Shown: in pieces, positions 55,541 through 62,833 of the stretch
Numbering within the stretch: position 1 is the stretch's first letter
How the letters are laid out: each line of letters opens with the position of its first letter
NCBI GenBank assembly: GCA_026005175.1
Contig: BPKO01000001.1
Location: forward strand, 682,001 to 746,000
Direction of reading: 5' to 3'
Length of the DNA: 64,000 nt
DNA from: Candidatus Tectimicrobiota bacterium
GTDB taxonomy: Bacteria > Tectomicrobia > Entotheonellia > Entotheonellales > Entotheonellaceae
Made by a program: the position numbers and the translations under genes
Notes under the pieces: generated by a model
What the model was told of the DNA's origin: nothing
Seen by the model: the letters and a program-made list of their open reading frames with translations, nothing else
Databases searched by the model: none

Positions 55541-55894
55541 ATGGAAACGCTGGCCCGCATGCGCTGCACCGCCTGTCGCCCGGGAGAGCCCACGGTCACC
55601 ACAGAAGAAATCGCCGCCTTGCAGCCGCAGATCCCCGCGTGGCAGGTGGTCGAGCGTGATGGCATCCAGCGCCTGGAGCGCGTGTTTCGCTTCCGTAATT
55701 TTGCCGAAGCCCTGGCCTTTACCACCAAGGTGGGAGAACTGGCCGAGGCCGAAGGCCACCACCCCGCCCTGCTGACCGAGTGGGGACGGGTGACGGTTAC
55801 CTGGTGGACTCACAAAATTAAGGGCTTACACCGAAACGACTTCATCATGGCGGCCAAAACGGACGAGCTCTACGCCGGCTTTGCCCCGTCATAG
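55541..55894 (+). CDS. Pterin-4a-carbinolamine dehydratase 1
   Basis: 117 residues. The active-site His pair is in AEGHHPALL and the conserved Trp-His region reads [20 protein letters not shown], then AAKTDELY. This longer type, with an N-terminal [16 protein letters not shown] stretch, is common in bacteria and plants. It dehydrates 4a-hydroxytetrahydropterin in phenylalanine-hydroxylase recycling or acts in Mo-cofactor work. AAGGAGG precedes ATG 55541. A second copy lies at 59063. Confidence 0.93.
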
Positions 55895-58031: not shown

Positions 58032-59051
58032 ATGACGCACGAGCACCTGGCACGCGTGGCGGCGCTTGGTGAGGAAATTGATCGCCTTTGTACCCTTGAC
58101 CTGCGTCCTTCCGGGCCCATCGGGGGGTACATCGGCCGCTTTTACGCCGCCGCTCGCCAGCAATGCGACACCGCCCTTACCTTTGCCGCGGCCCGCTGCC
58201 TCAACAGCGTGGCGCCAGGCGACACGGTGGTGATCGCCACCGGCTTTTGCGATCCCCCTCGCTTGCCTCAGGGAGAGACAGATGGCCCACCAGGGGCGGC
58301 GGTTTTGGCCCGCGCCGTGCTCCTGGGGCTGCAAGCCACGCCCGTGCTCGTGGGGGAAGCGGCAATTGCCGAGCCGCTGCAAGCCTGCACGCGGAGCCTG
58401 GGGCTGCGCCTACACCCCGACCTGGCCGTGGCGCGCCAAGTGCCCTACGGCGTCGGGTTTTATCCCTTTCCCCTTGCGCCACAAGAGGCGCAGGCTGCTG
58501 CCTGCACGCTTCTTGAGCAGACGCGCCCGGCGGTCGTGGTGGTGACCGAGCGTGCCGGCCCCAACCGCCTTGGCGTGGCCCACAGCGCTATGGGTCGTGC
58601 GCTTCCCGCCGGCTCGCGCGCCCTTGTGGAATACCTGCTCGAAGCGGCACACGCCGCCGGCATTCCCACCATTGGCGTGGGGGACAACGGCAACGATATG
58701 GGCTTTGGCTGCATCGAAGACGTGGTGCGGCGCCACAAACCTTACGGCGACGTCTGTCAGTGCCCGTGCGGTGGCGGCCTGGCCACGGTGGTCAAAACCT
58801 CGCTGCTGGTCACCGCGGCGGTAGCCAACTGGGGCGTGTACGGGGTGGTGGCTTGTCTGGCCGCCCTGCGGCAGCAGCCGGCGCTGCTGCACAGCGCCGC
58901 CGAGGAAGCCGACATGCTCCAGGCCTGCGTAGGTGCCGGGGCCGCCGACGGCATTACCGGCCGCCCGCTGCCCACCGTGGACGGGTTGCCCACGGCAGTG
59001 CAGTGTAGCATCGTCGAGCTCTTGCACGCCTTGGTGGCCAAAGTGTGCTAG
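58032..59051 (+). CDS. D-glutamate cyclase-like (DUF4392) protein
   Basis: 339 residues. The domain is recognised by [38 protein letters not shown] and [18 protein letters not shown]. In vertebrates the related domain converts D-glutamate to 5-oxo-D-proline. An N-terminal [14 protein letters not shown] segment is also shared. A Cys-rich stretch [15 protein letters not shown] follows. Enzyme activity in bacteria is largely inferred. ATG 58032 is usable. It ends 11 bases before the second PCD gene. Confidence 0.8.
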
Positions 59052-59062
59052 GGAGGAACGCC

Positions 59063-59359
59063 ATGGTCGAAACACAGAAACTCTCGGACGCAGAAGTCAC
59101 GGCCCGTCTTGCCACCCTTCCTGGCTGGGAAGTGGTGGCCGGCAAGCTGCAAAAGACGTTTACTTTCGCTTCCTTCGTGGAAGCGTTTGGCTTTATGACT
59201 CGCGTGGCCTTGGTGGCCGAAGCCATGGGGCACCACCCAGAGTGGTCCAATGTCTACAATCGGGTCACCATTGCCCTTACCACGCACGACGTGGGGGGCA
59301 TCAGCCCGCTCGATTTTACCCTGGCCCAGAAAATCGACGCCCTTGCCGGCAAGGCATAA
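59063..59359 (+). CDS. Pterin-4a-carbinolamine dehydratase 2
   Basis: 98 residues, the short canonical form. Active-site histidines are in [20 protein letters not shown], with the third His in [13 protein letters not shown]. Begins [16 protein letters not shown] after GGGAGGA. The window thus has two different types of this enzyme but no phenylalanine hydroxylase. Confidence 0.93.
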
Positions 59360-59393
59360 AGCGGGTCCGCATCCGTGTAGAAGGAGCATACCT

Positions 59394-59807
59394 GTGGACG
59401 ACAAGCCGAGTGCCAAACACCTCGAGCGCATGTGGAAGTATGCCGAAAAGTTCGCCGAGAAGTCCGGCACCTACCTGCATCCCAACCGCAAGGTCACCGA
59501 AGTGGTCATCGAAGGTCTGGCACGGCACATCGAGGAGGTGGGCAAACCCCTGTGCCCGTGCAACTTTTACCCCGACAAGCAAGCCGAGGCCAAGCTGCGC
59601 CGCTGGATCTGCGCCTGTGACGAGATGCAGATTTACAAGTACTGCCACTGCCTGCTCTTTGTGACCCCCGAAGGGCTGCCCATCACCGAATACTTGCCCG
59701 AGGACCACGAAGGGCGGCAGATCTACGGCCTGGTCAAAGACCCTCACCCCGACAAGGGGCGGGCCCTGCGCCACCGTGCCGGCGAGGCAGCCAAGCCCCA
59801 GCCCTAA
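59394..59807 (+). CDS. Ferredoxin:thioredoxin reductase catalytic (beta) chain
   Basis: 137 residues. The Cys layout CPC (KPLCPCNFYP), then WICACDEM, then YCHCLLF matches the FTR pattern CPC-x16-CPC-x8-CHC, holding a 4Fe-4S cluster and an adjacent redox disulfide. GTG 59394 follows AGAAGGAG. Transfers electrons from ferredoxin to thioredoxin-like proteins. No FTR alpha subunit is near, as in many non-photosynthetic bacteria and archaea. The long basic C-terminus is unusual. Confidence 0.9.
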   Translation: MDDKPSAKHLERMWKYAEKFAEKSGTYLHPNRKVTEVVIEGLARHIEEVGKPLCPCNFYPDKQAEAKLRRWICACDEMQIYKYCHCLLFVTPEGLPITEYLPEDHEGRQIYGLVKDPHPDKGRALRHRAGEAAKPQP

Positions 59808-61026: not shown

Positions 61027-62062
61027 ATGCGAGGACTCCTCTTGCCGACTACCGTGGTGGGCAGTTATCCCCAGCCGGCGTGGTTAATTGACCGCGACAC
61101 CCTCGCGCGGGGCATCGTGCCGCGCGTGCCTGCCCGCGAGCTGTGGCGCATTCCCCCGCCGCTGCTGGCCGAGGCGCAAGATGACGCCGTACTGCTGGCA
61201 CTGCGTGACATGGAGCGTGCCGGCATAGACATCGTCACCGATGGTGAAGCGCGGCGCGAGAGCTATTCCAACTACTTTGCCACAGCGCTCGAAGGCCTCG
61301 ACCTAGAGCACCCCGGCACGGTCATCGGCCGCACCGGCCAGCCGGTACCGGTCCCCAGGGTGGTGGGGCCGCTGCGGCGCCCGCACCCCATTCAGGCGCG
61401 CGATGTGGCCTTCCTGCGTCAGCACACCACCCGCCTCCTCAAGGCCACCCTGCCCGGGCCCCTTTACCCTGAGCCAGCAGGCGCAAAACGAGTACTACCC
61501 TGACGAGGAAGCCCTGGCCATGGCGTACGCCGAGGTGGTGAATGCAGAGGTCCGCGATCTTTTTGCAGCCGGCGCCGACATCGTCCAGCTTGACGAACCC
61601 TGGCTGCAGGCGCGGCCCGCGCAAGCCGCGCGCTATGCCGTCAAGGCCATCAACCGCGCCCTCGCAGGCGTGCAGGGCACGACCGCCCTGCACCTGTGCT
61701 TTGGCTACGCGGCGGCCGTGCATCACAAGCCCAGCGCCTATGACTTTCTGCCCGAACTGGAGCAGACGGTCGTCCAGCAGGTGTCGATCGAGGCCGCCCA
61801 GCCCCGGCTTGACTTGTCGATTCTCACCGCCTTGCCTTCAAAGACGATCATTCTGGGCGTTCTTGACCTGAGTACGCCGGAGCCAGAAACGCCCGAGGTG
61901 GTGGCCCAGCGCATCCGTGCAGCCCTGCGGTATGTGCCGCCGCAGCGGCTGGTCATCGCTCCTGACTGCGGCATGAAGTACCTGCCGCGGCAGGTGGCTT
62001 ACCGCAAGCTGCGCGCCATGGTGCTGGGGACGGCAATCGTGCGGGAAGAAGTGGTCAGCTGA
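61027..62062 (+). CDS. MetE C-terminal-domain-like methyltransferase 2, one frameshift
   Basis: About 344 residues when joined. TTVVGSYPQPAWLIDRD, TDGEARRESYSNYFATAL and DIVQLDEPWLQARPAQAARY are family-typical; zinc-type ligands are in LHLCFGYAA and IAPDCGMKYLPR. Removing one C from CCCC (61459-61462) joins ATLPGPFTLSQQAQNEYY. It differs from the divergent copy by being the archaeal-type core MetE. Role likely methionine synthesis or demethylation of a methylated substrate. Confidence 0.88.
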
Positions 62063-62130: not shown

Positions 62131-62364
62131 TTACTCTGCCAGCGCCGCGTCGATGGCGGCGGGATTGAAGCCGCTGAGGCGCTTGTCACCAATGACGATC
62201 ACCGGCAGCGAGCGCAGCCCCATGCTCATCAGCTCCTGCACCGCTTCGGGATCGCGGGCCACGTTTTTCTCGATGTAAGGCACGCCTTTTTGCGATAGAT
62301 ACTCCATCGCTTGGTGGCAAGCCCCTCAACCGATGTTGCTGTATACGATGACCTGCTTTGCCAT
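62131..62364 (-). CDS. Glutaredoxin-like selenoprotein (in-frame UGA read as Sec)
   Basis: 77 residues if TGA at 62326-62328 is Sec. From ATG 62364 the sequence is MAKQVIVYSNIG-U-GAC, so U-x-x-C replaces the CxxC of glutaredoxin/NrdH-like proteins; the second Cys is at residue 16. The rest is intact: MEYLSQKGVPYIEKNVARDP, the cis-Pro segment RSLPVIVIGD and SGFNPAAIDAALAE, then TAA. AAAGGAGG lies five bases upstream of ATG 62364. A bacterial SECIS-like hairpin begins 15 bases after the TGA. It lies 35 bases after the ArsC-like selenoprotein and is likely a thiol/selenol redox enzyme. Confidence 0.88.
62292..62310 (-). other. Bacterial SECIS-like element of the glutaredoxin-like gene
   Basis: In mRNA sense GCGATGGA-GTA-TCTATCGC forms an 8-pair stem (one G-U) with GTA as apical loop. 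The loop lies 23 bases after the UGA, within the range used by SelB, and contains the expected G-U. Confidence 0.75.
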
Positions 62365-62399
62365 CATGGCCTCCTTTGCCAGCGTCACGTCGACGGCGC

Positions 62400-62747
62400 T
62401 CACCGGAAGACGTCGGCAAACACCTGCTCATTATAGCCAACGAGCAGCGTTTGCCCCACCCGCAGCGTGGGAGCACGCAGGTTGCCCGTGGGCCCAAGCA
62501 GGAGCGCCGCCAACGCCTCCTCCGACGGCGGTGCTGCCTTCAAGTCCACGGTGGTGACGTGTTTCCCTTTCATGGCAATGAGCCGCTGTGCCGTACGGGC
62601 CAGGGCCAGGGCTTCGGCACGGCCAAGCCGCTTGGCGGCGCTGACCGTTTCCCGCACGGCGATGCCATGCGTCTCCAGAAACTTGGAGACTTTGGCACAC
62701 GTGGCTCACCCCTTGCGATGGTAGTACCAGTCGACCTCTGCGGCCAT
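62400..62747 (-). CDS. ArsC/Spx-family selenoprotein (in-frame UGA read as Sec)
   Basis: 115 residues if TGA at 62706-62708 is Sec. ATG 62747 opens MAAEVDWYYHRKG-U-ATCAKV, matching the ArsC/Spx-family start (Y-x-x-x-x-C-x-x-C) with the first Cys replaced. The rest continues FLETHGIAVRETVSAAKRLG, MKGKHVTTVDLKAAPPSEEA and the cis-Pro region GNLRAPTLRVGQTLLVGYNE. A non-recoding reading would start only after the TGA and lose the active site. A SECIS-like hairpin follows at the same distance as in the next gene. Function may be arsenate-, peroxide- or disulfide-related. Confidence 0.88.
62671..62690 (-). other. Bacterial SECIS-like element of the ArsC-like gene
   Basis: GTCTCCA pairs with TGGAGAC (7 perfect pairs) around AGTTTC, which includes the G-U needed by SelB. 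The hairpin starts 15 bases after the UGA, and the apical loop is 22 bases away. Confidence 0.78.
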
Positions 62748-62833
62748 AGCTTTCCTTTCTGCGCGACACGCGGTCCCCTTTGGCCAGCCAGGGAAGGAGT
62801 CTATCAGACCTCCGGCAGGCAGCGCAACGGGCG

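Follow-up and report, generated by a model that had tools for sequence, protein, structure and literature searches.

An ArsC/Spx-like selenoprotein gene next to a glutaredoxin-like selenoprotein gene in Entotheonellaceae and its predicted role as a disulfide reductase

Two neighbouring genes with in-frame TGA codons

The window analysed here is a stretch of 64,000 nucleotides from the genome assembly of a Candidatus Tectimicrobiota bacterium (contig BPKO01000001.1, positions 682,001 to 746,000), and all window coordinates refer to its forward strand. On the minus strand it carries an ArsC/Spx-like selenoprotein gene (62400..62747), which reads from 62747 to 62400 and yields a UxxC protein of 115 aa when its TGA is translated as Sec; translation bore out the boundaries drawn in the original prediction. 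The product reads MAAEVDWYYHRKG-U-ATCAKVSKFL...FADVFR, with a second in-frame TGA as the true stop. Codon 14 is the Sec (TGA) codon (62706..62708, minus strand), lying in the context HRKG-U-ATC at the catalytic Cys position, and a likely ribosome-binding site, AAAGGAAA (62751..62758, minus strand), stands ahead of the ATG. After a gap of 32 nt (62368-62399) follows a glutaredoxin-like selenoprotein gene (62131..62367, minus strand), encoding 78 aa from its first ATG, again with UxxC (GU-GAC), in the product (M)MAKQVIVYSNIG-U-GACHQAMEYLSQKG... and with its in-frame TGA at 62326..62328 (minus strand). Between the two genes lies a strong ribosome-binding site, AAAGGAGG (62370..62377, minus strand; like the first, read from the sequence), which a second ATG at 62364 fits better than the first. 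Judging by this site and the short gap, the two genes probably share one transcript.

The glutaredoxin-like protein matches Pfam Glutaredoxin (PF00462) with 52.3 bits (cut-off 22.9), while it reaches 74.2 bits against YruB (TIGR02196, cut-off 88.55) and 46.1 bits against Uxx-star (NF041212, cut-off 66). It shares the glutaredoxin fold and a Sec at the first active-site position with YruB (TIGR02196), NrdH and Uxx-star (NF041212, NF041114), but scores under the cut-offs of all YruB, NrdH and Uxx-star models. Its second Cys is retained (UxxC), unlike that of Uxx-star family 1, a UxxT family; the latter appears as 'Distant Grx-like protein 1 (UXX-star family 1), UxxT' in the accessible part of a selenoprotein review (PMC13188914). 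In a comparison confined to loci with an unambiguous glutaredoxin sequence, we found TGA at the Sec codon in 4/4 Entotheonellaceae and in outside homologs from several genomes, with Cys in others. The source genome holds further glutaredoxin-like genes with an in-frame TGA, namely L120 (G000:C6:12721-12927, ASUGACQHVKEFLS) and, about 11 kb from it, L125 (G000:C6:1077-1289, GUSSCAKTKELLS).

Evidence for selenocysteine coding

To collect relatives of the ArsC-like gene, each species was represented by a single genome and scanned with a pattern that was derived from an alignment, ends ahead of the Sec codon and hence introduces no bias toward Sec. The original prediction had TGA standing in for the catalytic Cys, and both states of this position were found: among the best 80 of 277 relatives, codon 14 is TGA in 75 and a Cys codon in 5. 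Relatives showing the TGA/Cys exchange belong to Planctomycetota, Myxococcota, Acidobacteriota, Pseudomonadota, Krumholzibacteriota and Gemmatimonadota. Across 59 aligned rows, D6, W7, Y9, R11, G13, U/C14, G61, G85, G88, P93 and G104 are invariant and C17 is nearly so, being replaced by Ser in three rows and by Ala in one. Four relatives from Krumholzibacteriota and other groups (L064, L069, L091, L107) keep the Sec and have Ser or Ala for the resolving Cys (UTSS/UTSA); they are apparent one-selenol forms, so that a UxxC mechanism does not hold for every family member.

Both genes are followed by a SECIS-like stem-loop. That of the ArsC-like gene (62671..62690, minus strand) consists of 7 bp (GTCTCCA/TGGAGAC), all Watson-Crick, around a 6-nt loop (AGTTTC), and starts after a 15-nt spacer from the TGA (fold z -3.6); that of the glutaredoxin-like gene (62292..62310, minus strand) has eight pairs, one of them G-U, and a 3-nt loop, begins exactly 15 nt after the TGA (fold z -5.6) and recurs in three relatives. 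The 7-pair stem and the spacing common to both genes were as predicted. For comparison we counted the TGAs of the window that are preceded by a start codon and have no fewer than 50 codons of open frame after them. Of these 166, six, both Sec genes included, are followed by a 7-bp stem at +15 when G-U pairs are permitted; under strict Watson-Crick pairing the ArsC-like site is the sole case. Stem geometry was accordingly rejected as proof by itself, and the matching spacing of the two genes reflects recognition by SelB, not joint function.

Covariation in the ArsC-like stem was assessed on 33 sequences in the same register, where 97.8% of cells are paired versus 25-39% when the register is slid by one to three columns, and 15 double-change cells were observed versus 3.6 expected in shuffles. 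Four of the seven pairs never vary, and the covariation signal comes from the three basal pairs. Most Cys homologs have no comparable stem, and one (L074) has a partial one. In addition, the genome encodes selA, selB, tRNA-Sec and selD, all over cut-off, with selA and selB side by side and the tRNA-Sec (anticodon tca) about 7 kb away, which confirms the sel genes that Sec coding calls for. From these sequence comparisons we conclude that the ArsC-like gene is a genuine selenoprotein gene, because the TGA/Cys position is conserved, the stem covaries and the Sec machinery is there, and not because of its geometry. The original prediction had found two adjacent Sec genes of matching geometry hard to explain by chance, an argument that conservation and covariation sustain, since they exclude chance stop codons, and that is weak for the geometry alone. 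It is scarcely credible that the two TGAs are simply stop codons, or errors of sequencing, in broken or short ORFs: +15 stems with G-U allowed are not rare (6/166), the sequence comes from a metagenome assembly and a MetE-like gene close by looks frameshifted, but the same TGA recurs in independent assemblies from many phyla with Cys as its alternative, next to covarying stems and a complete Sec machinery.

The selD gene of the source genome (L007, G000:C9:120631-121554) contains an in-frame TGA as well, and its selenophosphate synthetase is probably itself a selenoprotein.

An ArsC-related family with a predicted Spx/YffB fold

The ArsC-like protein matches the NCBIfam model NF041106, 'ArsC family (seleno)protein' (ArsC_rel_Se_1), with 130.2 bits (cut-off 85), its residues 5-110 aligning to model positions 1-107 of 107, and thus shares with this curated-model family the UxxC motif and the Sec site. 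In contrast, it barely passes Pfam ArsC (PF03960; 24.5 bits, cut-off 24) and stays under the cut-off of Spx/MgsR (TIGR01617; 28.2 bits, cut-off 75.05). An AlphaFold model built from 59 relatives (pLDDT 90.4) matches YffB and Spx in the PDB with moderate Z scores of 8.0-8.4, and a profile sequence search finds the same proteins. According to this model the protein has the Spx/YffB fold, and the ArsC/Spx-like assignment of the original prediction holds. With Spx/YffB (PDB 3gfk, 6ghb, 1rw1) it has in common the fold, the position of the CxxC motif and the 'LRxP...VGYNE' core, yet it differs from them in having Sec for the first Cys, no C-terminal extension and a score far under the Spx/MgsR cut-off.

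The accessible part of a 2026 review of prokaryotic selenoproteins lists the family as 'Arsenate reductase-like protein, NF041106, UxxC' (PMC13188914), and that of the Global Ocean Sampling selenoproteome from 2008 gives 'Arsenate reductase 2, cd03032, UxxC' with 42 sequences (PMC2398784), which is probably the same family. Going by these portions of the literature, it is already known as a selenoprotein family, by bioinformatic prediction only. The covariation described above adds firm support for Sec coding of NF041106 across many phyla.

The original prediction had included arsenate among the possible substrates, and the active-site surroundings bear on this point. R91 is conserved and lies at the conserved Arg position of Spx/ArsC; the region of the second Arg has K60/K62 and that of the third F/Y-N, and the residues following R91 are VG(F/Y)N, like those of Spx. 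Arsenate reductases carry a third Arg where this family has none. An arsenate reductase with its own glutaredoxin beside it, as in glutaredoxin-coupled ArsC, would suit a member of the ArsC fold family by the PF03960 score, the conserved R91 and an adjoining glutaredoxin that recalls the logic of ArsC plus glutaredoxin. However, no NCBIfam arsenate reductase model matched the protein even at E = 1, Spx and YffB are the nearest proteins of solved structure, the sequence after R91 follows Spx, ars genes were not seen next to the pair, and glutathione synthetase was not found (see below). We thus regard an arsenate reductase as very improbable and do not retain arsenate as the substrate.

Alternatively, the protein could be a redox-sensing regulator of the Spx type that binds RNA polymerase, with Sec14 and Cys17 as its switch, as its best matches in the PDB, by sequence as well as by fold, are Spx proteins and include the CxxC position. 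This is quite improbable given a TIGR01617 score of little more than a third of the cut-off and a protein without C-terminal extension past residue 115; moreover, a sensor switch would be an uncommon place for Sec.

Pairing of the two genes in Entotheonellaceae

In 4/4 Entotheonellaceae genomes from three genera the two Sec genes stand side by side, separated by only about 20 to 40 nt, a spacing typical of operons. The nearest three relatives come from two 'Candidatus Entotheonella' chromosomes and a bin labelled 'Proteobacteria bacterium', all of the source's family; together with the window's protein, theirs group as a single clade of four (support 100/96). In 77 other loci, for which as much as 8 kb of flanking DNA per side was covered (with some contigs short), no such glutaredoxin was found near the ArsC-like gene, and in two genomes (G101 and G367) the glutaredoxin stands without an ArsC-like partner gene. 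ORF clustering gave no conserved operon across the NF041106 family, its output being mainly shadow ORFs and near-copy genomes; the other members inspected have no conserved neighbour, whereas here a Sec glutaredoxin gene comes next. Since the pair was not found in the loci outside Entotheonellaceae and each gene stands alone elsewhere, the pairing is lineage-specific and each protein can work alone. The coupled redox module put forward in the original prediction is partly supported, gene order being conserved within this family and not in the loci covered beyond it. Gene order suggests that a functional link between the two Sec proteins is likely in Entotheonellaceae, while the specificity of the partnership may be weak, the pair not having been found outside this group.

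Co-located selenoprotein genes have been described before: the accessible part of the review names operons of Prx with SelW-like and of Prx-like with AhpD-like proteins, and states that such genes often belong to one pathway (PMC13188914). A further parallel is offered by 'Tandem use of selenocysteine' (cited in the accessible parts of PMC13188914 and PMC9312934), where a Sec MsrA is reduced by a glutaredoxin that contains Sec itself. As proposed here, a Sec glutaredoxin there serves a Sec enzyme; the client in that system is MsrA, whereas our proposed client is the ArsC-like protein, a relation suggested by inference only. In the accessible selenoprotein literature we found no mention of a Sec pair of ArsC-like and Grx-like proteins.

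The evidence on gene order also bears on the possibility that the two genes encode stand-alone antioxidant selenoproteins, brought together by chance in one lineage and serving the general thioredoxin/glutaredoxin pool. Each gene does occur alone elsewhere, and the pair has no other conserved neighbours and is flanked by ordinary genes. Nevertheless, a very short gap has been kept in all four genomes of the three genera although the flanking genes have partly changed, which makes an accidental association unlikely.

Proposed mechanism and source of electrons

We favour, with a probability of roughly two thirds, the reading that the ArsC-like protein is an NF041106 selenoprotein oxidoreductase that is re-reduced by its probably co-transcribed Sec glutaredoxin, the latter being recharged by thioredoxin reductase or FTR and not by glutathione. 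Sec14 of the thioredoxin-fold protein would attack a disulfide or an oxidised substrate, and Cys17 would resolve the intermediate through a selenenylsulfide bond with Sec14. This bond would then be reduced by the NrdH/YruB-like Sec glutaredoxin, most likely, or by the thioredoxin system, and thioredoxin reductase or FTR would recharge the Sec glutaredoxin. The favoured activity is thus that of a selenol/thiol disulfide reductase, whose chemistry, partner and direction of electron flow we infer. As gene order ties a widespread selenoprotein family to a Sec glutaredoxin, its electron donor becomes directly testable.

Regarding the electron source, glutathione synthetase was not found in any of five genomes of the phylum, which disfavours glutathione; the window's genome is only 77% complete, so that a missing gene says little there. 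An NADPH thioredoxin reductase is present, and the window encodes an FTR catalytic chain (59373..59804, plus strand; PF02943, 87.6 bits, cut-off 22) with CPC, CAC and CHC motifs. FTR occurs in four of these five genomes, and we consider thioredoxin reductase or FTR a likelier electron source than glutathione. In two relatives FTR is the next gene downstream of the glutaredoxin, on the opposite strand, and in the window it lies about 2.3 kb from the pair; near the glutaredoxin relatives of G101 and G367 none was found within about 8 kb. We did not retain FTR adjacency as specific evidence, which is weak in that the surrounding block, with pterin-4a-carbinolamine dehydratase and an endonuclease-like gene, is partly syntenic too. 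A further reading, in which the pair would form the end of a glutathione-free, ferredoxin-driven selenol relay running from ferredoxin through FTR and the Sec glutaredoxin to the Sec ArsC-like protein, appears unlikely.

In the third relative the FTR gene carries an in-frame TGA itself (L161, genome G001, C122:8501-8752, minus strand), changing CHC to CHU (YKYCHU) at the last Cys of the motif, which is redox-active in FTR; the window's own FTR has Cys at this position. An 8-bp stem, GTAAACCC/GGGTTTAC, starts 9 nt after this TGA, with a fold z of only -1.5 and in one assembly. Sec at redox-active Cys positions of FTR has already been reported from marine metagenomes, according to the accessible part of the Global Ocean Sampling study (PMC2398784). 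This FTR hints at the ferredoxin-driven relay; if the relay were true, all three carriers would be selenium-based in the relative that holds L161.

The MetE-like gene of the window (PF01717, 61026-62062) is split into two frames near 61460-61480 (PGPLYP / GPFTLSQQ), apparently by a frameshift or by an assembly error of a single base. Finally, pterin-4a-carbinolamine dehydratase (PF01329) is encoded twice in a stretch of less than 4 kb of the window, at 55541-55891 and 59045-59356.
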